Source: a virus
Strand: one strand, 5' to 3'
Length of the DNA stretch: 32,269 nt
Virus record (IMG/VR): IMGVR_UViG_3300044647_001290
Location: 1-32,269 of that record
Each line of letters starts with the position of its first letter. Position 1 is the stretch's first letter. Positions 2,430-19,444 of this stretch are shown here, piece after piece. Position numbers and translations under genes: made by a program. The notes below the pieces were generated by a model that searched no databases, was not told where the DNA came from, and worked only from the letters and a program-made list of their open reading frames with translations.

Positions 2430-3007
2430 GCCGACTCAGGCAAGCGATGATCGCTATCCCCTCGATGGGGCTCGCCGCCGCTCTGGCGCTCTACGGTCTC
2501 ACGCCGCGAGAAATGACCGACGCCGTCATTGACGCTGCTGTGGTGCTGCGCTCGATGGCGCGGACCCCCGACGAGATCGTTGATCTCATCGTCGCCGAAT
2601 CCGGCGCAAGCCGTGACGAGGTCGAGCCAGTCGTTCGGCTCGCTGTCGGCAGCGTCGGCCGTGACTCGCGCAGCCTTCGCACCGTCGATCTGTCGGTGCT
2701 TGTGCCCGCGACCAAGGCGACCGACGCCGTCGAGGCGTACGCACAGGCGTTTTGCGCGCCGCTGTTGGCCTTCGCCGATGCGTCTCACCCTGTCGTGGCC
2801 GAATGCCTCGCCGCGCAGCGTGCGGCATCTGGCGTGCCGTATTGCGTGGGTGACGCGGTCGCTGGCTATCTTGTCCGCTCGCCGGCCACGCCACCTCAGG
2901 CCGAGCTTGCGCAGCAATGGCTCGGGTCGATCGCCACCATCGTCGACGGCGACCCAGCGGCGGCGCTCGCCGCGCGCGGGTGGCAGAGGTGTCCAGATGC
3001 ATCCTGA
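2426..3007 (+). CDS. Hypothetical protein with hydrophobic N-terminus (193 aa)
   Basis: ATG at 2426 overlaps the previous stop (ATGA). The N-terminus has a hydrophobic stretch (AMIAIPSMGLAAALALYGL) that could be an anchor or uncleaved signal. After it comes an Asp/Ala/Val-rich helical region (EMTDAVIDAAVVL, DEIVDLIVAESG) and scattered cysteines (FCAP, AECL, YCVG). It is the third gene in a row with a possible export signal, and its 3' end overlaps the phospholipase start by 11 bases. That suggests co-production with the phospholipase, but I recognise no family. Confidence 0.65.
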   Translation: MSRLRQAMIAIPSMGLAAALALYGLTPREMTDAVIDAAVVLRSMARTPDEIVDLIVAESGASRDEVEPVVRLAVGSVGRDSRSLRTVDLSVLVPATKATDAVEAYAQAFCAPLLAFADASHPVVAECLAAQRAASGVPYCVGDAVAGYLVRSPATPPQAELAQQWLGSIATIVDGDPAAALAARGWQRCPDAS

Positions 3008-3872
3008 CGTCTACGCCAGCGTGAGCGGCGGTGGTCCCGCTATCACCTATCTCGCTGGCGCAGCGTCGTCTCTGGCCGCTCGATCGCGTGTGCTCGGGTG
3101 GGCCGGTGCATCGGCGGGCGCGCTTGTCGCGGCCTGCAAGGCGTTTGCTGTCGCCGATGAGACGATTGTGCGTATCCTTGTCGAGGTGCTGTCGACGGGA
3201 AAGGTCTTGAATCCAGGTCTTGGGAATATTCCCCGCGGCGGAATCTTCGACCTCGACACCGTGGGCGCGATCGTCGACGCCAACTTGGGCAAGGGCGCAC
3301 GCCTCGGGGATGCGAGCGTGCCTCTCGTCGTCTGCGTGACCGACCTTGACAGGGCGCGTCCTGTCTATCTCGCGAAGGCAACTACGCCGCGCGTGCTCGT
3401 GCGTGAGGCGCTCATTGCGTCGTCGTCGTTCATGTGCGGGGTCACGCCAGCGGCGACGATCCCAAGCATCGGCACCGAGCTCTCGCCGGACATCCGTCTG
3501 TGGGGCGACGGCGGCCTCACAGACAACACGGTCGACGGCATCTGGGATGGCCTTCGCGATCCTCGTGTGGCGCTGCGTCTCGCTCGCCACGACGGCGATA
3601 CACAGCCGCACGAGCGCATCCGCGACGGTGACGTGCCCAAGATTCTCGCGGCGCTTCCTCGTGCTCTCTTGTGGGGCGCGTCGACGTGGAAATCACGTCG
3701 CATGGATGGCCTCGACATCGAGGTCGACGGCGTCAACGACTGGTCTTTCAAAAAGACCGAGACGCGCATCCTTGGCGAGTGGGCCGACGGCTACGACAGC
3801 GCCGCCGGGCAAATCGGCGAGTGGTTGCGTCGACGAAAAGACGCTGAGACAATGGCGACCCATGAGCATTGA
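2997..3872 (+). CDS. Patatin-like phospholipase (291 aa)
   Basis: Patatin-family enzymes hydrolyse acyl esters of membrane phospholipids with a Ser-Asp dyad. The family hallmarks are present in order: a glycine-rich oxyanion loop (SGGGPAITYLAG, residues 10-21), the nucleophile elbow GASAG with Ser39, a segment ALIASSSF around 138-145 that matches the family's conserved A-S region, and the DGG motif with Asp171 (WGDGGLTDN). Length fits a minimal patatin domain plus a charged helical tail. There is no signal peptide. ATG 2997 overlaps the upstream gene, and spanin-like, holin-like and endolysin-like genes follow. A role in membrane breakdown at lysis, or in altering host membranes, is inferred from context. 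Confidence 0.85.
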   Translation: MHPDVYASVSGGGPAITYLAGAASSLAARSRVLGWAGASAGALVAACKAFAVADETIVRILVEVLSTGKVLNPGLGNIPRGGIFDLDTVGAIVDANLGKGARLGDASVPLVVCVTDLDRARPVYLAKATTPRVLVREALIASSSFMCGVTPAATIPSIGTELSPDIRLWGDGGLTDNTVDGIWDGLRDPRVALRLARHDGDTQPHERIRDGDVPKILAALPRALLWGASTWKSRRMDGLDIEVDGVNDWSFKKTETRILGEWADGYDSAAGQIGEWLRRRKDAETMATHEH

Positions 3873-6553: not shown

Positions 6554-7240
6554 TCAAAACATCGTTGGTGTGTAGCCTCGTTCGAGGCGTCTTCTGGCTA
6601 TCTCGTAGTGCTCGGGCTTCTCCTCTGACGTGATGCAGCGACGGCCTTCCATCGCCGCAGCAAGGGCGGTGGTGCCAGAGCCGCAGAACGGGTCCACAAT
6701 GAGGTCGCCGGGGCGGCTGTAGTCGCGGACGATGGCGCGCATGAGGCCGAGGGGCTTGCAGCCTGCGATTCCGGCCCCCTTCACCGTCGGCGCTTCATAG
6801 GCACCGGGCAGACAACCCCACGTCGCCATCGTCTTGTTCCTCGGGCGCCCGACCATCATGTAGACAGCCCACGACGACGGACCATCCCCGACAAGGCGCG
6901 GGCGCTTCTGGATGATTGGTACCGGCGCGAACGTATACAGGCCAGCGTTTCGGTAGGCTGACTCCCATGCTGGGATCAGATCATGGCTCGTCATGCACGC
7001 CAGCCAGCCTCGACACCGAGGTGCCCATGCGCCAACGAATTCTACGACGGTTGTGGCAGTGAATTCTTCGTAGGCGATACTCTCGCGGGTATGCTGTCCT
7101 GTGATCGAGATGGTCGATTCAGCGCCGTCGTTGTGTCCGTCGTGAGTGGCCTTACTATACGGCGGGTCACAAATCACCGCATCGCACGTCGTCACGTCGG
7201 CCAACACGTCTTGCCATCGGCCTAGCCTCAGATCAATCAT
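6554..7240 (-). CDS. DNA methyltransferase (N6-adenine or N4-cytosine type, 228 aa)
   Basis: The catalytic motif DPPY is at residues 25-28 and the SAM-binding motif DPFCGSGTT near 183-191. The order catalytic then SAM-binding is the beta-class arrangement of amino-methyltransferases (N6-adenine or N4-cytosine), and size is typical of phage solitary enzymes. No restriction endonuclease is adjacent, so self-protection of phage DNA is the natural role. The recognition site cannot be read from sequence. ATG 7240 overlaps the stop of a 46-aa gene. Confidence 0.9.
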   Translation of the reverse strand: MIDLRLGRWQDVLADVTTCDAVICDPPYSKATHDGHNDGAESTISITGQHTRESIAYEEFTATTVVEFVGAWAPRCRGWLACMTSHDLIPAWESAYRNAGLYTFAPVPIIQKRPRLVGDGPSSWAVYMMVGRPRNKTMATWGCLPGAYEAPTVKGAGIAGCKPLGLMRAIVRDYSRPGDLIVDPFCGSGTTALAAAMEGRRCITSEEKPEHYEIARRRLERGYTPTMF

Positions 7241-7377
7241 CGTCCACCCAGCTCGCGATAAATCGTCTGCACAAGCGCCCAGTCGCGATCGGTGAAGCTC
7301 GACTCGGGTTTCTTGCGAGACTCGCTCACAGCGCGCTTGGCTTTGTTCCAGATGGCTTCGTCTTTTTGTCCTGGCAT
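7237..7377 (-). CDS. Small basic hypothetical protein (46 aa)
   Basis: ATG at 7377, with GGGGCC upstream as a weak ribosome binding site, and a stop that overlaps the methyltransferase start (ATGA). The peptide is basic and helical (AIWNKAKRAVSESRKK, DWALVQTIYRELGGR). Similar small basic proteins are common in phage early operons. The tight coupling suggests co-expression with the methyltransferase. Function unknown. Confidence 0.55.
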   Translation of the reverse strand: MPGQKDEAIWNKAKRAVSESRKKPESSFTDRDWALVQTIYRELGGR

Positions 7378-7387
7378 TATTGGCCCC

Positions 7388-7561
7388 TTATTGGTGAAAG
7401 CTGTCTTCAAGCTCTTCTTTGATTCTCGCCAGTCGAGTCTCAGCGTCGACGACGCGATAGAGCATCTCCCTGTATGCCTCCCACGCTTTGTCTCGTTGCG
7501 CGTTTGCCTCAGCGACGAGGGCGCGCAGGCGATCCATCTCGCGCCTTTCTTTTCGTGTCAT
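7388..7561 (-). CDS. Small coiled-coil protein (57 aa)
   Basis: ATG at 7561, stop TAA at 7388-7390. The product is almost entirely a charged amphipathic helix (MTRKERREMDRLRALVAEAN, then LARIKEELEDSF), probably a coiled-coil dimer. It sits between two other tiny coiled-coil genes of the early operon. No domain recognised and no function proposed. Confidence 0.5.
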   Translation of the reverse strand: MTRKERREMDRLRALVAEANAQRDKAWEAYREMLYRVVDAETRLARIKEELEDSFHQ

Positions 7562-7563
7562 CG

Positions 7564-7734
7564 TCACGGTTTCTCTCCCCTTGCTTTGGCGATGGCGAGC
7601 TCAACCTCGAGCACCCTCACACGTTCAAGCGCCTCGTTGCGCTCATCCTGCATGCGATGCCACACCGATGTAGGCACCACGACGACGTTGACGGTGTCGT
7701 CGAGGATGCCGAGGATACGGAACAGAAAGCTCAT
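7564..7734 (-). CDS. Small hypothetical protein (56 aa)
   Basis: I choose ATG 7734 because it forms an ATGA overlap with the nuclease stop; longer in-frame extensions are basic shadow sequence. The N-terminal part is hydrophobic (SFLFRILGILDDTVNVVVVP) and the C-terminal part is a charged helix (RMQDERNEALERVRVLEVEL). It could be peripherally membrane-bound. No family recognised. Confidence 0.5.
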   Translation of the reverse strand: MSFLFRILGILDDTVNVVVVPTSVWHRMQDERNEALERVRVLEVELAIAKARGEKP

Positions 7735-8066
7735 CGGGTCACCGCTATGAGTTTTTGGACTGCGTCTACTGCCTGTTGTTTTCCTTTGGCGACGACGACG
7801 CAATCACCGAGGCCGCGCAAGTACTCATGCCAATCTTTCTGCTCTTTGCTGACAGTCCCGCCGTCGGCTCGCTTGAACTCGATCCACAGCCGCAAGGCCG
7901 GAACATGGAGGTCAGGCACGCCGCGCGTAACGCCCTCCGCTTTGAGTCTGGCGCCTTGGCTGGCTCCACGGTGGCCACCGTTGGGGATCGCGTAAACGCG
8001 CACGCTTGGGTGCGTCTGGCGCAGCCATTGAACGAACTCGCGTTGCTCTTCGTGCTCGGTCTTCAA
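7731..8066 (-). CDS. VRR-NUC domain nuclease (111 aa)
   Basis: The motifs of VRR-NUC (PD-(D/E)XK superfamily) nucleases appear in order: TEHEEQREFVQWLR near the start, YAIPNGGHRG, GVPDLHVP with the catalytic Asp, and LWIEFKR with the E-x-K pair, then EQKDWHEYLRGLG. These act on branched or nicked DNA in recombination or replication. I prefer TTG 8066: it gives a TTGA overlap with the upstream stop and has GAGG 7 bases before it. An ATG at 8096 would add 10 residues but has no ribosome binding site. Start choice is uncertain, family is not. Confidence 0.85.
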   Translation of the reverse strand: MKTEHEEQREFVQWLRQTHPSVRVYAIPNGGHRGASQGARLKAEGVTRGVPDLHVPALRLWIEFKRADGGTVSKEQKDWHEYLRGLGDCVVVAKGKQQAVDAVQKLIAVTR

Positions 8067-8260
8067 AACGGGACCTCGTCTTTCCAGTCGGGGCATGCGT
8101 TGGGCGTTTCGGCGAAGTCGTCGGGTGGCTTCTCATCATGAACGCGGCATGCGTTGGTGTATCCGTCGAGGTGGTAACAGTTGAAGCACACACGTGGCAT
8201 GCGCTCGCGTAGCGCCTTGCACTCGTCGTCCCACACTTGCAGGGCCTTTGGTCGGTTCAT
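8063..8260 (-). CDS. Small Cys-rich protein, possible zinc finger (65 aa)
   Basis: ATG 8260 ATGA-overlaps the helicase stop. Cysteines are placed as CFNC in the middle and single Cys at NACRVHD and NACPDWK, with a His in YHLDGY, consistent with one zinc site. The tail is acidic and hydrophobic (DWKDEVPF). Proteins of this size and pattern are common between helicase and nuclease genes in phages. Function unknown. Confidence 0.55.
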   Translation of the reverse strand: MNRPKALQVWDDECKALRERMPRVCFNCYHLDGYTNACRVHDEKPPDDFAETPNACPDWKDEVPF

Positions 8261-9894
8261 GCCCACGTCCTTCTCGTGATTGTGTTGAATTTTCCTTCGG
8301 TCGTGTACCGAATTTCAACCGGGTGTGGAGCGGCGTTGAAGGCCGCAGCCACGGCGTCAATATCGTTGTTTGCGATCAGGTCTGGCGGCAGATGGCTTGC
8401 CACCTTCTGCGCCATTTTGATCACGGTTGTCCATGCTTTTTGTCCTGCGTATCCGTCGTGGAGCACCGTCAGATATTCCGTGACAGGGTGGTCGCTGAGG
8501 CATCCGTAGTAGGTCACTGTCAGCATGTCTTTTCCCGAGCGGCTGGCGACCTTGCGCCATGTCCACTCGGTGACCTCGAGGACTTTTACGTCGTCTGGGT
8601 TGATGCCAAAGACCATGTCAACTTCCTCGAGCTGTGGAGCCTCAGGCGGCGGTGGCGCAGCACGGGGAAACTCAAAGCCGCAAGCCGGGCAGGTCATGAT
8701 GTGGATCGGGACAAGCTCGGCGCACTCGCACGATTCGCCGCCACGGATCACGGTGTTTGGGCACACCTTGACCGGCACTTCACCGTCTTTTCCAGGCCCC
8801 TTCACCCTCGGCGCCGTGATGGGTCCATGCTGTGCCACGAGACCGGCAAAATCGAGGACAAGACAGTCGGTCTTGCCTTCGGCCTTGCGGAGGCCGCGTC
8901 CGCTCATTTGCATGTAGAGGGAAACGGACATCGTAGGACGAAGGAACGCGATGAAGTCGACACCCGGCGCATCAAATCCCGTCGTCAGCACGTTGGCATT
9001 TGTGATCGCCGTGACCTTGCCATTCTTGAAATCGGCGATGATTTTCTCTCGCTCGCTCTTTGGTGTGTCGCCGGTGATGCACTCGGTGACGACGCCACGA
9101 GCCCGCAACGCGTCTAGCATGCGTTCGGCGTGGCGGACACCAACACAAAACACCAACCACGACTTGCGGCCCGTCGCATTGGCCATGATTTCGTCGGCGA
9201 CGATCGCGTTTTGTGCGTCGGTGTCGACGAGGTCTTGCAGCTCAGATTCAATGAACTCTCCGCCGCGCTTGTGCAGACCCGACGTGTCAAACTTCTTTTT
9301 GGTCGCGCGACATCGTAGTGGCGAAAGGAAGTCGCGAGATAGCAACTCCTCGACGCTGACAGGCTCCACGAGGCCATCGAATAGTGCGGGCTTGTCGGTG
9401 ATGTATCCGTGGCCGAGACGGTAAGGCGTAGCCGTCAACCCGATCACACGCATGTGCTGGTTGTTTTTGGTCAACTCACCAATAAATCGCCTATAGCTAC
9501 CTTCGTCGTCGTGGTTGACGAGGTGGCACTCGTCGATGATGCATAGGTCGACGTGGCCGACGTCGGCGGCGCGGTTGCGGATCGACTGGATGCCGGCAAA
9601 CGTGATCGGCTCACCGAGGTCACGACGACGCATGCCGGCGTGGTAAACCCCAAGCGGCGCCGCCGGCCAGACAGCGCGCATGCGCTCGGCGTTCTGCTCG
9701 ATGATTTCTTTGACGTGTGAGAGCATGAGGATGCGTGTTTCTGGCCACTCTGTCAGCGCTTCTCGACACAGGGTGGCAACCACGACGCTCTTGCCGGCAC
9801 CCGTCGGAAGGACGAGGCACGGATGGCCAGTGTTGCTCCGCATCCATTCCATGAGCTCGTCAATGGCGCGGCGCTGATAGTCCCTGATCTTCAC
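8257..9894 (-). CDS. Superfamily 2 DNA helicase (545 aa)
   Basis: Residues 5-36 hold a Q-like start and Walker A (PTGAGKS, 30-36). The DEXH box DECH is at 121-124, motif III TATP at 154-157, and the second RecA domain carries motif V-like NVLTTGFDAPGVD and motif VI QMSGRGLR. After the helicase core there is a Cys site (CECAE, CPACGFEFP) and a C-terminal domain of unknown role. It is likely a 3'-5' translocase or helicase in phage replication or recombination, like the RadD-type proteins of many siphophages. It is coupled by ATGA to the PD-(D/E)XK nuclease upstream. Confidence 0.9.
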   Translation of the reverse strand: MKIRDYQRRAIDELMEWMRSNTGHPCLVLPTGAGKSVVVATLCREALTEWPETRILMLSHVKEIIEQNAERMRAVWPAAPLGVYHAGMRRRDLGEPITFAGIQSIRNRAADVGHVDLCIIDECHLVNHDDEGSYRRFIGELTKNNQHMRVIGLTATPYRLGHGYITDKPALFDGLVEPVSVEELLSRDFLSPLRCRATKKKFDTSGLHKRGGEFIESELQDLVDTDAQNAIVADEIMANATGRKSWLVFCVGVRHAERMLDALRARGVVTECITGDTPKSEREKIIADFKNGKVTAITNANVLTTGFDAPGVDFIAFLRPTMSVSLYMQMSGRGLRKAEGKTDCLVLDFAGLVAQHGPITAPRVKGPGKDGEVPVKVCPNTVIRGGESCECAELVPIHIMTCPACGFEFPRAAPPPPEAPQLEEVDMVFGINPDDVKVLEVTEWTWRKVASRSGKDMLTVTYYGCLSDHPVTEYLTVLHDGYAGQKAWTTVIKMAQKVASHLPPDLIANNDIDAVAAAFNAAPHPVEIRYTTEGKFNTITRRTWA

Positions 9895-10733
9895 GGCTTC
9901 ACCATGTGGTCGTGCGCCTCATAGTCGGTGCAGCCCATCCGCTGGTTGGCGACGGGGATCGGCTCGTAGTCGTGGCGTTCACAACGCCATGTGCCGTCTT
10001 CCTTCGCCGTCGAGTGTGCACACGTTCGGCAAGAGCGAGGCACGTCTCGTGTCGTCGGCGAGTGGCAGAACGAATGAGCCGCGCAAGGCTTGCACTGGTA
10101 CCACGACGGGTCATGTGACAGCGGCGGCGGCATCTCGTCGACGATGGCAAGGCGCTTTCCTCGGGCGATCGCCTTCTCGGCGACGTCGCGGTCGTAGCGC
10201 ACCCGCTCGGTGTAAATGCGGTCGTCGTCCTTGCACACGGCGAGATAGAGCGCCCGGTCGATGCCGAGGCCGTGCATGTAGCATTGCATCTGGATGAAGT
10301 GGCGCGGCTTGGACTTTTCGACGCCATGCTTCTCGAGGTCGGCAAAGCTCTTGAGACTGTGGGTTTTAAATTCAGCAACGTGCGGTTTTTTCGGCGCCTC
10401 GGGAACGCCAGACCGGATCACGGCGTCGATGCTCCCCGACACATGACACCCAAAGTCGACGCGTTGTTGCTCGCCTTCGTCGATGACACACCCGATCGCC
10501 CGCAGGTCGCCGAGGATTACGGCTTCTTCGCGATGGCCTCGACGGAACAGACGCAGCATGCGCCCGCTGAACGATTCAGGGACAGCCCAGCGAAACTTGA
10601 GCCACAACCAGCGGTCACACTCGGCTCCAAGCTCGCTACAGCCCATATGGGCTCGTGGAGCTTCCTGGCGGGCCTCGTGGTGGGCGTCGATTGCAGACGC
10701 TGTCAGGCTTCGCGGTGGAGGGATGGGGGCCAT
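9891..10733 (-). CDS. PD-(D/E)XK nuclease with C-terminal Cys cluster (280 aa)
   Basis: Catalytic positions visible are Glu69/70 in RGHREEA, Asp103 in SGSIDAVI, and Glu121/Lys123 in AEFKTH, followed by the QMQCYMHG segment typical of RecB/Cas4-like phage exonucleases. The C-terminal third has many cysteines (CKPC, FCHS, SCRTC, WRCER), possibly an iron-sulphur or zinc site as in Cas4/AddB-type proteins. It is next to an SF2 helicase and downstream of Sak4 and DUF669-like genes, so a role in end-processing for recombination is inferred. The N-terminus MAPIPPPRSLTASAID matches the usual family start, although the ATG has no clear ribosome binding site. Confidence 0.85.
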   Translation of the reverse strand: MAPIPPPRSLTASAIDAHHEARQEAPRAHMGCSELGAECDRWLWLKFRWAVPESFSGRMLRLFRRGHREEAVILGDLRAIGCVIDEGEQQRVDFGCHVSGSIDAVIRSGVPEAPKKPHVAEFKTHSLKSFADLEKHGVEKSKPRHFIQMQCYMHGLGIDRALYLAVCKDDDRIYTERVRYDRDVAEKAIARGKRLAIVDEMPPPLSHDPSWYQCKPCAAHSFCHSPTTRDVPRSCRTCAHSTAKEDGTWRCERHDYEPIPVANQRMGCTDYEAHDHMVKP

Positions 10734-16047: not shown

Positions 16048-16075
16048 TTGACTTTGTTTGAAAGCCGAGTAAAGT
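16048..16075 (+). promoter_or_regulatory. Rightward copy of duplicated promoter
   Basis: TTGACT (16048-16053) and TAAAGT (16070-16075) are 16 bases apart, the same boxes and spacing as the leftward copy. Transcription would start near GAGCGCA and reach the zinc-ribbon gene at 16101, then end at the strong terminator after 16493. Confidence 0.75.
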
Positions 16076-16100
16076 GAGCGCATACCAGGGAGAGATCGCC

Positions 16101-16493
16101 ATGACGACCGAAATGACCACTGTCACCTGCTACCGCTGCCACGGATTCAAGAACGCTTTCGCGCGTTTCGGCCATATTGCCTATGGCCGATGCTTTCTGT
16201 GTGCCGGCAACTTGACGATTGAAATCCCGACGTGGAAGTTCGAGCAACACAAAGCCGCAAACGCTAAGGCGATCGCTGAATCTCACCGCCGATTTGCAGA
16301 GCGCCCCTATATCCTCGCCGTCGATGGCATGGAGACGGTCGCAAGCATCTACGCGACCTGGGAGCAAGCCCGCAACGCCCAGGCCTATGGGCGGGAGACC
16401 GAACACGGGACCCTCCGAATCGCCAAGTGGGATGGCGAATGCCACCGATACCGAGACGGATCACGGGTCAGATTCGCTCACCAGATGACCTGA
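16101..16493 (+). CDS. Zinc-ribbon protein (130 aa)
   Basis: ATG 16101 has GGGAGAG upstream. Residues 9-40 contain CYRCHG and CFLCAG, two CxxC pairs about 20 residues apart, a classic zinc ribbon. The rest is a mixed helix/strand domain (AIAESHRRFAERPYILAV, YATWEQARNAQAYGRE, LRIAKWDGECHRYRDGS). It stands as a one-gene transcript between its own promoter and terminator, like phage host-control or regulatory genes. Target unknown. Confidence 0.7.
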   Translation: MTTEMTTVTCYRCHGFKNAFARFGHIAYGRCFLCAGNLTIEIPTWKFEQHKAANAKAIAESHRRFAERPYILAVDGMETVASIYATWEQARNAQAYGRETEHGTLRIAKWDGECHRYRDGSRVRFAHQMT

Positions 16494-16523: not shown

Positions 16524-16525
16524 CG

Positions 16526-16548
16526 TGCCAACGTGGCATAGTGGTCGC
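16526..16548 (+). promoter_or_regulatory. Dyad TGCCA-ACG-TGGCA with -10-like CATAGT before the late operon
   Basis: A perfect 5-bp dyad (16526-16538) overlaps CATAGT at 16537-16542, which ends 6 bases before the ATG of the ParB-like gene. There is no ribosome binding site. A promoter giving a leaderless message, with an operator on top of it, is inferred. Confidence 0.4.
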
Positions 16549-17085
16549 ATGACAAATCCTCGCAATGCCGCACCTCTGGTGCGTCGCAGTGTCGAGCGCG
16601 CAGACACTTTGCGGCCAGCTCCATACAACCCTCGCAAGATCTCAAAGGAGGCTTTGAAGGGCCTGCAGGCCTCGATTGAGCGATGGGGCGTCGTCCAGGA
16701 CATCGTCGTCAACAGTCGCAACCGTGTCGTGGTTGGCGGGCATCAGCGACTTGCGGCACTGAAGGTTGCCGGCGTTCACGACGTCCCTGTCACCTGGGTC
16801 GATCTCGACGAGGCCGACGAGAAGGCACTGAACGTGGTGCTCAACAACCCGCACATTTCGGGCGAGTTTGACGACACGTTGTTGCAGACGCTGCTGGCTG
16901 AGATTCAAGAAAGCATTGGGCCTGAGTTGTTCGCTGCCGTCTCCTTGGATGGCCTGCTCAATGACACACCAGACTTCAGCCCCGGGACTGAGAACGAGCA
17001 AGGCCAACTAGACGAGCTTGCACCCAAGATGGTGCGATGCCCGTCCTGCTCACACTCTTTCGACGCGAGGAAGCATGAAGGCTGA
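16549..17085 (+). CDS. ParB/Srx-like protein with C-terminal zinc knuckle (178 aa)
   Basis: ATG 16549 lies just after the dyad and has no ribosome binding site. Residues 20-100 match the ParB N-terminal (ParB/Srx) domain: PAPYNPRKIS, LKGLQASIERWGVVQDIVVN, and the phosphate-binding RVVVGGHQRLAALK. A helical part (ALNVVLNNPHISGEFDD) and then a short CPSC site near the C-terminus follow. There is no visible ParB HTH or CTP-clamp dimer domain, so plasmid partition is unlikely. Such short forms occur in phage operons with DNA-modification or terminase genes. It overlaps the Mom-like gene by 11 bases. Confidence 0.8.
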   Translation: MTNPRNAAPLVRRSVERADTLRPAPYNPRKISKEALKGLQASIERWGVVQDIVVNSRNRVVVGGHQRLAALKVAGVHDVPVTWVDLDEADEKALNVVLNNPHISGEFDDTLLQTLLAEIQESIGPELFAAVSLDGLLNDTPDFSPGTENEQGQLDELAPKMVRCPSCSHSFDARKHEG

Positions 17086-17743
17086 TCTCCGCGTCGACTG
17101 GGCTACGCATGAAGCGGCCAAGTATGCTGTTGAGAATTGGCACTATAGCAAATCCTTACCAGTGGGCAAAACTGTAAAGGTTGGCGCATGGGAAAGTGGG
17201 AAGTTCATCGGTGTTGTGTTGTTTGCTTACGGTGCTAACAACAATATAGGAAAGCCGTTTGGACTGTCGCAGATTCAATGTTGTGAACTGGTAAGAGTGG
17301 CACTGAATAAACACCAATCTCCAGTGTCAAAGATAGTCGCGCTTGCATTGCGAATGCTCAAGAAGTCTAACCCAGGTATTCGCATTGTGGTTTCCTATGC
17401 TGACACACAACAAGGACACCACGGCGGCATCTACCAAGCTGGGAACTGGGTTTTTGTCGGAACTTCTAATGGAGCGACACAGTATGTACTCAATGGTAGA
17501 ATCGTGCATTCAATGCAGATTCAAACATTCATCCGTGCAGGAAAACTAAAGTCTCGCACGGGTCTGGAAACTGTTGCCGCAGGAGACAAGCACAAGTATC
17601 TCATGCCCCTTGACGACGCCATGAGAGCCGTTATCCTTCCCTTGTCGAAGCCCTACCCGAAACGCGTCCGCTCCAGCGAGGCTCCTGGGGACCACCCAGA
17701 AGACCGGCAGGGCAGCACTGACCCGGACGCTCCACATGCCTAA
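17075..17743 (+). CDS. Mom-like DNA adenine modification protein (222 aa)
   Basis: The sequence matches the phage Mu Mom family, an acyltransferase-like fold that converts adenine to a methylcarbamoylated base that blocks many restriction enzymes. Visible family features are the NWHYSKSLP motif (His23-Tyr24), QIQCCELVRVAL, SKIVALALRML, and the signature ADTQQGHHGGIYQAGNW with Asp110. The conserved Tyr and Asp are, as I recall, metal-binding in Mu Mom. Start ATG 17075 has GAGG upstream. The gene is clearly less GC-rich than its neighbours, with many A/T-ending codons, suggesting separate acquisition. It sits between the ParB-like protein and the terminase genes, so genome modification just before packaging is inferred. 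Confidence 0.8.
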   Translation: MKADLRVDWATHEAAKYAVENWHYSKSLPVGKTVKVGAWESGKFIGVVLFAYGANNNIGKPFGLSQIQCCELVRVALNKHQSPVSKIVALALRMLKKSNPGIRIVVSYADTQQGHHGGIYQAGNWVFVGTSNGATQYVLNGRIVHSMQIQTFIRAGKLKSRTGLETVAAGDKHKYLMPLDDAMRAVILPLSKPYPKRVRSSEAPGDHPEDRQGSTDPDAPHA

Positions 17744-18149
17744 AGGCGCTCGACGACCCACAGCCAAGAGCATGGTGCTTGCGAAGAACCGTGAGCTCGA
17801 ATGCTTGGCGTTGCGCAAGGCAGGCGCCACCTACGACCAGATCGGAGACAAGGTCGGTATCACGCGAGAGGGCGCGCGATTAGCTGTCTCGCGTGCGTTG
17901 GCAGATCTGTCTGCGGCGACAACAGAGGAGGCGAAAGAGGTTCGGCACCTGGAGCTGGAGCGCCTCGACGCGATGCTGCTTGGGCTGTGGCAGAAGGCGT
18001 CCAGGGGCGACCCTGCATCGGTCGATCGGGTGCTGCGCATTCAGGAGCGTCGGGCTCGATTGCTCGGCCTCGACGCAGACCCCGGACGAAACAACACGCC
18101 TGATACGGCCGTCGACACCGTCGACTTTTCACCCGTGATCAAAACGTGA
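17736..18149 (+). CDS. Terminase small subunit (137 aa)
   Basis: ATG 17736 overlaps the Mom-like gene by 8 bases. An N-terminal HTH pattern (ALRKAGATYDQIGDKVGITR, 28-47) is followed by a helical oligomerisation region (LELERLDAMLLGLWQKASRG, RVLRIQERRARLLGLD), the usual arrangement of small terminases that recognise the packaging site. The large subunit follows directly in a GTGA overlap. Confidence 0.85.
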   Translation: MPKGARRPTAKSMVLAKNRELECLALRKAGATYDQIGDKVGITREGARLAVSRALADLSAATTEEAKEVRHLELERLDAMLLGLWQKASRGDPASVDRVLRIQERRARLLGLDADPGRNNTPDTAVDTVDFSPVIKT

Positions 18150-19444
18150 AGCGGGGCCTCGCGACGTTTGGCAAGCGTCACCTCGAGGTGCTGGCCGATC
18201 GTGCACCTGGGATCCGTGTCGTCTCGGGTGGATACGGATCTGGCAAGACGTCGGTGGGCGTCGCGTGGGCGGTCGACCTCGGCTTGCGCGCTGGCCACCT
18301 CGGGCCAATCCTCGCGACGGAGCCGAGCTATCGCTCCGTCGTCGACGTCATGGAAGCGGCGATCATCCGCTACTGCGATCTGTGGGGGCTCCCCTATCGA
18401 CGTTGGGTAAGCGATCATATTTTCGAGATTGGCAAGACAAAGAAATTTGAGCTGTGGTGCAGATCTCTCGACAAGCCGCGCGCCGTCGAGGGGATCAACG
18501 CGATCGGTCTGTGGGCCGACGAGTGGGAACTATGCGACCCCGAGTCTCTGATCCCGGCGATGCAGCGCGTCCGCGTCGGCGACGCTCTCGAGATCCTCCT
18601 CACCGGAACACCCGAGGGGTACGGGCCAGCATGGGAAGCGGTCTTGGCGAACCCGTCTCCGACGACGAGACAGTACGTGATCAGGACACAGGACAACCCT
18701 TTTTTGCCGGCGTCCTACGTCGACGAATCGGCATCGAGGCTCGGCACCGACGAGGCGATCAAGGAGAAACTCGAAGGCATCCGCACGGCACGCGGCGGCC
18801 GCGTCTACTCCCGATTTGATCGGCGCATCAACGGCGCTCCCGTCGTGAAATCGGGTCGCATCGCCATCGGTTGCGACTTCAATGTCCGCAACATGCAGTG
18901 GGTCATAGCCGAAGTCGACGACGTCAACCGCCGCATCCACGTCGTGGGCGAAGTGATCAAACAGGGCGGCACGACGACAGACGAACACGCTGAGCGCACG
19001 GCGCAAATGATCATGCGTCGACTCGGTCGCTCGCGAGAGGACGTGCACGCGATGCGGATTCGCGCATACCCAGACGCCTCAGGCCAGTCGCTGCACACCA
19101 CGTCGACGCTGTCAGACGTGCACCTGCTTTTGCAGGCCGGTTTCAGGCCCGATCCCCCGACGAGAAACCCGCCGATCATGGAGCGCGTCAACACCGTCAA
19201 TGTGCTTTTTCGGGATCGTCGTCTCTCCGTCGACGTCGACGCATGCCCAACGCTCGCAAGGGCTCTCGAAACACAAGCTCTCGACGCCAATGGCGAACCC
19301 GAAAAGAAGACGGGCAACCTCGACGTGAGCCACATCCTCGACGCGCTCGGCTACGTGTGCCATCGGCTATTCCCGGTGCACCGTAGGGCACAGACCACGT
19401 CGACGTATGCGCCGATCGTAGACGAGTGGGGGCCGGTGGCGTAG
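18146..19444 (+). CDS. Terminase large subunit (432 aa)
   Basis: The packaging ATPase has Walker A GGYGSGKT (28-35), Walker B GLWADEWE (Asp125-Glu126) and the coupling motif TGTPEG. The nuclease domain shows the three metal-binding aspartates: Asp244 in GCDFN, Asp310 in AYPDASG and Asp399 in SHILDALGY. Length and order are those of TerL. GTG start overlaps the small-subunit stop. It translocates DNA into the prohead and cuts at the end of packaging. Confidence 0.95.
   Translation: MKRGLATFGKRHLEVLADRAPGIRVVSGGYGSGKTSVGVAWAVDLGLRAGHLGPILATEPSYRSVVDVMEAAIIRYCDLWGLPYRRWVSDHIFEIGKTKKFELWCRSLDKPRAVEGINAIGLWADEWELCDPESLIPAMQRVRVGDALEILLTGTPEGYGPAWEAVLANPSPTTRQYVIRTQDNPFLPASYVDESASRLGTDEAIKEKLEGIRTARGGRVYSRFDRRINGAPVVKSGRIAIGCDFNVRNMQWVIAEVDDVNRRIHVVGEVIKQGGTTTDEHAERTAQMIMRRLGRSREDVHAMRIRAYPDASGQSLHTTSTLSDVHLLLQAGFRPDPPTRNPPIMERVNTVNVLFRDRRLSVDVDACPTLARALETQALDANGEPEKKTGNLDVSHILDALGYVCHRLFPVHRRAQTTSTYAPIVDEWGPVA

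Follow-up and report, generated by a model that had tools for sequence, protein, structure and literature searches.

The mom gene of this virus carries, in its sense strand and inside its reading frame, a tRNA-Gly-like RNA element that lies right before the next gene. The RNA and its linkage to mom are well supported, and we consider it probable that the locus is a two-part DNA-adenine hypermodification unit, made up of the GNAT-fold enzyme Mom and a nested tRNA-Gly-like RNA that is proposed to act as its glycyl donor. The first-pass annotation of this DNA had overlooked the RNA at the 3' end of mom. The window referred to below is the whole stretch of DNA that was analysed, which makes up all 32,269 bases of an IMG/VR virus record, and its features are listed in Table 1.

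Table 1. Features of the window at the mom locus and in the leftward block, with the matches or sequence details that define them.
Feature	Position	Strand	Basis or detail
ParB-like gene (ParB_N domain and C-terminal CPxC half zinc knuckle, VRCPSCSHSF)	16525..17085	+	PF02195 37 bits; phrog_620
mom ORF, 222 aa	17075..17743	+	ATG 17075, TAA 17743
Folded GNAT-type Mom domain	~residues 1-197 of mom ORF		PF25680, phrog_1384, 8bv8, AF2
tRNA-Gly-like element, 71 nt including encoded CCA	17664..17734	+	R1 and R2 covariance models; GCGTCCG CTCCAGCGAGGCT CCTGG-GGACCAC-CCAGA AGACC GGCAG-GGCAGCA-CTG[A]CC CGGACGC U CCA
5' acceptor strand, GCGTCCG	17664..17670	+	pairs 7/7 with 17724-17730 (CGGACGC)
Anticodon arm, CCTGG-GGACCAC-CCAGA	17684..17700	+	anticodon ACC at 17691-17693; C35 and C36 kept; position 33 is G, not U
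T arm, GGCAG-GGCAGCA-CTG[A]CC	17706..17723	+	five pairs, bulged A at 17721
Discriminator U73 and encoded CCA	17731..17734	+	end of element
Small terminase-like gene, HTH	17736..18149	+	phrog_645; weak Sigma70_r4
Terminase large subunit	18146..19444	+	phrog_10250 E 2e-29; phrog_2 E 2e-27
DNA methylase domain match	6554-7237	minus	leftward block
ResIII/DEAD helicase	8257-9891	minus	leftward block
Cas4-type exonuclease	9891-10730	minus	leftward block

The mom reading frame is a Mom-family gene, as had been claimed earlier from two motifs, HYS (residues 23-25) and ADTQQGHHGGIYQAGNW (residues 109-125), which are both present in the ORF. The protein matches the Pfam Mom family PF25680 with 155.4 bits (cut-off 27.1) over the complete profile (1-202/202), PHROG 1384, annotated as 'Mom-like DNA modification protein', with E 7e-58, and the sequence of Mu Mom in 8bv8 with E 6.5e-12. 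Profile searches placed it in Mom and not in an unrelated acetyltransferase family, and the structure search against Mu Mom agreed, the best Foldseek matches of the AF2 model being 8bv8_B/A (E 3e-12, TM 0.69-0.75). A search of NCBIfam gave no Mom match. Residues H23, Y24, E71, R74, Q121, and Y175 are shared invariantly with Mu, and S85 falls opposite Mu S124 in the alignment; this position is occupied by S in 33 and by T in 7 of 40 Moms and is mutated (S124A) in 8bv8, an inactive crystal form. The GNAT CoA-loop motif [QR]xxGx[GA] is missing from the beta4-alpha3 segment in 40/40 aligned Moms. By analogy with Mu, the window Mom would be expected to carry out methylcarbamoyl (glycinamide) chemistry.

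The AF2 model has a pLDDT of 86.5, with residues 200-215 and 218-222 below 50. The protein's own fold stops near residue 197 (...KPYPKR), and the final ~25 codons are a read-through of the tRNA-like element. Mu Mom ends at PYPK, the point where the element starts in other Moms.

The element was scored with two covariance models, R1 derived from 86 gapless elements that included neither the window nor its short class, and R2 from 44 mom-derived elements with the window excluded. R1 found 17664-17734 at 35.0 bits (E 4.8e-6), the next best match in 32 kb having an E of 0.27, and R2 found the same segment at 43.7 bits (E 1.3e-7); it is the only real match to either model in the 32 kb. R1 gives probable host tRNA-Gly genes scores of ~35-55 bits, as expected for a tRNA model. 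When the mom tail of the window was recoded synonymously, the observed score was reached in 1/1000 samples. ARAGORN found no tRNA at 17664-17734, Rfam gave only chance matches on this stretch, and the folding energy of the element taken alone is not unusual (z -1.3). There is one mismatch in the anticodon stem, and the D arm is reduced. The element carries the full bacterial glycine identity set (G1-C72, C2-G71, G3-C70, U73, C35, and C36), but it lacks the elongator tRNA-Gly features, with C8, G33, and GGC at 54-56 instead of U8, U33, and U54-U55-C56.

Searching 72 mom loci (540 kb, both strands) with R1, we found the element in 68/71 related loci, 67 by R1 itself and one (L063) by a structural scan; L044 and L065 have none, and L072 is truncated. 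Apart from a tRNA-Thr in L053/L054, every R1 match in the 72 loci has the same strand as mom and falls at the 3' end of a mom ORF. Nearly all relatives share a common plan of GCGNNNN, an NCC anticodon arm, a T arm, NNNNCGC, U, and usually CCA. A bulged A in the T stem is likewise common to nearly all of them (exceptions L047, L049, L063, L064, L074, and L088). ARAGORN does call tRNA-Gly genes in sense inside mom ORFs of relatives, and the canonical copies found in this way are those of L040, L045-L047, L049, L064, and L069; 76/80 elements at a mom 3' end are invisible to it. In L092 (11828-11919, minus strand) the element region matches the Rfam Tymovirus tRNA-like 3' UTR at 35.5 bits, just under the gathering threshold of 40, which is a sign of the distance of the element from canonical tRNAs. 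Tandem mom genes are present in five loci (L017 662-2107; L025 1271-2616; L049 489-1771; L058 603-1705; L067 720-2348), and in L017 each of the two has its own tRNA-like element (1312-1381 and 2023-2092).

The acceptor stem is 99.8% paired among the 86 gapless elements. Most of these came from a pattern search in which the T arm and part of the 3' acceptor strand were preset, and the rows were filtered for a GCG start. Acceptor pairs 4-7, which the search pattern left free together with the D arm, the anticodon arm, and C35C36, have all changed on both sides, and the acceptor covariation score in this set is 0.519 as compared with 0.134 for shuffled and at most 0.122 for slid alignments. C35C36 is kept in 86/86 of the gapless element set A4. 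Among 39 mom-derived elements picked on stem pairing alone, GCG, CGC, U73, and C35C36 are each found in 39/39 and an encoded CCA in 25/39, while U8 is seen in 4/39, U33 in 19/39, and UUC in the T loop in 10/39. Relative to mom, the element is read in each of the three frames (24/10/4 loci), and in 4 more loci, including L061, L069, and L071 where it comes after the stop, it straddles or follows the mom stop codon. It is therefore the RNA and not the peptide that is conserved. That the conserved tail ('GEGG..PT.AL') is kept for the sake of the peptide was rejected on account of the three frames and the disorder of the tail in the AF2 model.

The linkage was also approached from the RNA side, with a 21-base pattern holding no mom information. 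This pattern gave 155 loci, 119 viral and 36 from genomes, and mom was found within ~700 nt of the element in 135 of the 142 loci with enough flank, 80 of these elements being located at the 3' end of mom and 55 just before it. A protein scan of the genome contigs found nothing; the RNA pattern later gave its 36 loci there. Other tRNAs are nearly absent from the mom loci of the relatives, and L073 and L254 have an opposite-strand tRNA-Gly gene beside mom. The complete genomes of Microbacterium phage Antuna and Arthrobacter phage Wyborn have one tRNA gene each, a tRNA-Gly beside mom. In Antuna it is normal-looking and on the opposite strand, and it is a different solution to the same need.

No element was found near the Mom genes of Mu, ICP1, A511, Salmonella, Proteus, Paenibacillus, and Enterococcus, and the element is thus not required for Mom in general. 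In a Mom tree of 114 rows, whose bootstrap is not fully settled and whose fine detail is rough, Mu Mom groups as sister to 20 Moms that bear the element (100/99), the Moms of ICP1 and A511 fall among those with a 5' element, and phiEf11 lies within the clade of the window. Given these placements, the linkage between element and mom is old and broad. Mu-like Moms without an element probably use host Gly-tRNA.

Elements without mom occur in L194, L214, L217, and L236. The one in L194 (762-837) lies directly ahead of terminase genes and is possibly a relic of mom loss. Near-identical 76-nt elements with differing flanks were seen in six Bacillota MAG loci (L214, L217, L236, L239, L243, and L210); no mom was found near the first three, and the other three loci are incomplete. 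These MAGs have 5-6 tRNA-model matches per genome, and host tRNA-Gly may account for some of them.

The gene order claimed for this region, with a ParB-like gene before mom and terminase genes after it, was borne out by PF02195 on one side and by a terminase-like ORF together with phrog_10250 and phrog_2 on the other. The end of the ParB-like gene overlaps the start of mom by 11 nt, and the ATG of the small terminase-like gene begins 1 nt past the CCA of the element. A ParB ending in '..DDQGKLDE..CPxCGHEF' precedes mom in most relatives; it comes first in 71/72 untruncated loci that have their element at the 3' end of mom, usually overlapping mom, and the overlap is kept across relatives. The ParB-like gene in the window has one CPSC knuckle and gave no match to a Com profile. 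Phage ParB relatives often stand next to adenine methyltransferases or are fused to them. The partner is probably an accessory DNA-binding factor and may guide or regulate the modification. As the driver of the linkage between element and mom, an association with ParB was rejected, since no ParB lies close by in 41 untruncated loci whose element is 5' of mom. Just upstream of ParB-mom, a small ORF (16074-16493) with a CxxC...CxxC spacing that recalls zinc-finger regulators such as Com had no match in Pfam or PHROG. Elsewhere in the window, a leftward block on the minus strand (6554-10733) holds a DNA methylase domain match, a helicase, and an exonuclease, and the ORF at 2529-3872 has a patatin-like phospholipase domain.

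Of all 465-nt stretches in the window, the mom core has the lowest GC, 0.462 against a mean of 0.63 (sd 0.04), in line with the lower GC previously noted for this gene. Its GC3 is 0.46, as compared with 0.69-0.81 in the listed neighbour genes. The later acquisition that had been deduced from this is a weak claim: of 52 non-redundant mom loci, 45 have a core with a lower GC than the flanks (mean -0.061; Wilcoxon p 2e-8), and relatives keep the ParB-mom overlap. Because the dip is family-wide, it is no sign of a late arrival in the window phage, and we rejected recent acquisition as unproven. Low GC is a property of the family, and the ParB-mom unit looks long settled.

The modified base of Mu, said to go back to work by Swinton in 1983, is reportedly N6-glycinamide-adenine. 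Fem enzymes have GNAT-like folds and act on aminoacyl-tRNA. The element is most likely a dedicated, translation-poor tRNA-Gly whose charged form would donate the glycyl group for N6-glycinamide-adenine; we infer its excision, its charging, and its use as a donor. The 71-nt RNA would be excised from the mom transcript, and as excision would destroy that copy of the mom message, each transcript could give either enzyme or tRNA; in the window the cut would leave the ATG of the next gene one base away. Host glycyl-tRNA synthetase would then charge the RNA, as suggested by the kept bacterial glycine identity set of U73, G1-C72, C2-G71, G3-C70, C35, and C36 (PMC9976931, Table 1). Entry into translation should be poor because U8, U33, and the U54-U55-C56 T loop are lost and the T stem has a bulged A. 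An element that is charged yet kept off the ribosome is the simplest reading of these features. Mom might then move the glycyl group onto N6 of adenine in the phage DNA, where the adduct could rearrange intramolecularly into the glycinamide ('methylcarbamoyl') form known from Mu, and the glycinamide adenine would protect the phage DNA from restriction. The GNAT toxin TacT is known to act on Gly-tRNA-Gly (PMC9976931). Against a Gly-tRNA donor counts an earlier proposal for the chemistry of Mu Mom based on acetyl-CoA and iron (Karambelkar, 2020), here taken as it is cited in PMC8072286.

Other roles for the element have to be weighed against that of a donor. Some copies are canonical by ARAGORN, as would be expected of an ordinary phage tRNA-Gly that aids the translation of glycine codons and lies beside mom by chance. 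Most copies, however, are missed by ARAGORN and have lost U8, U33, and the UUC T loop, the linkage to mom is seen in nearly all loci with enough flank, and other tRNAs are near-absent, with complete genomes that have only this one; we rejected an ordinary translation tRNA on these grounds and consider it very unlikely. tRNA genes serve as attB for many temperate phages, and the element might in principle be an attP that derives from part of a host tRNA-Gly gene. The cloverleafs are nevertheless complete, covary across the arms, and have many different acceptor stems, the element is always on the mom sense strand in the 72 mom loci searched, and its neighbours are mom and terminase genes; the annotated phages show no integrase adjacent to mom. 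Such an attachment-site relic is contradicted by the covariation, was rejected, and has hardly any credibility left. Phage tRNAs can also counter anticodon nucleases, and mom is itself a counter-defence gene, which would suit a decoy for host tRNA-targeting defences or toxins; a near-obligate linkage to a single enzyme, the Mu product of which has a glycine-derived group, and an element identity that is always glycine speak against it and make it highly improbable.

The alternative to which we give some, though little, weight is a cis-acting tRNA-like element that regulates mom from its 3' end, through processing, termination, or the binding of Mom or GlyRS, without serving as a donor. Its position within the mom transcript, abutting the start of the next gene, would fit such a role, and Mu mom is under tight control, with Com binding a hairpin in the mom mRNA (PMC6483171). 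Regulation in cis has no need for CCA and all of the glycine identity bases, yet these are kept, and the element is also found 5' of mom, past the stop codon, or as a tRNA-Gly gene on the opposite strand; we regard this explanation as unlikely.

As a general reading of the family, it is likely in our opinion that Mom is a glycyl-tRNA-dependent DNA glycyl-transferase, which would be the first aminoacyl-tRNA-dependent DNA modification, and that many phages have a dedicated, translation-exempt tRNA-Gly nested in mom. In the literature that was searched, no paper connected glycyl-tRNA with Mom or with DNA modification, and prior publication is possible. Judged from sequence, the enzyme belongs to the known Mom family, and the dedicated tRNA nested in its gene seems to be described in no paper found. 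The donor for the methylcarbamoyl-adenine of Mu has long been an open question, and a mom-tied tRNA with glycine identity points to Gly-tRNA. If the donor role were shown it would be categorically new, and tRNA charging would then be tied to DNA modification and counter-restriction. The locus is, in addition, a case of a tRNA gene lying in sense within a coding sequence, in three frames, and standard tRNA finders miss most of its copies.

Three known systems resemble parts of this arrangement. In the phage ParB-like/adenine methyltransferase modules (phrog_498 and phrog_620) a ParB_N domain is likewise fused or adjacent to a DNA modification enzyme, whereas the enzyme in the window is Mom and a tRNA is added; two ParB-MTase/PAPS phages that were searched (L257 and L258) had no element. 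The com-mom system of Mu has a homologous Mom with a GNAT-type fold, the invariant HY, E-L-R, and Q residues, Ser/Thr at the position of Mu S124 (window S85), and a small overlapping gene before mom. It differs in that Mu has no tRNA element, its com encodes a CCCC zinc finger where the overlapping gene in the window is ParB-like with a half knuckle, and its mom is found at the genome end and not beside the terminases. In Staphylococcus aureus, FemXAB use non-proteinogenic tRNA-Gly species, which have lost G18G19, have T stems that bind EF-Tu weakly, and serve as glycine donors for the cell wall (PMC4052509). We claim no homology between FemXAB and Mom, and the staphylococcal tRNAs have host genes of their own instead of being nested in the enzyme gene. 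Glycyl transfer through a dedicated tRNA-Gly with altered D and T elements would be common to both, with peptidoglycan as the acceptor in one case and DNA in the other.
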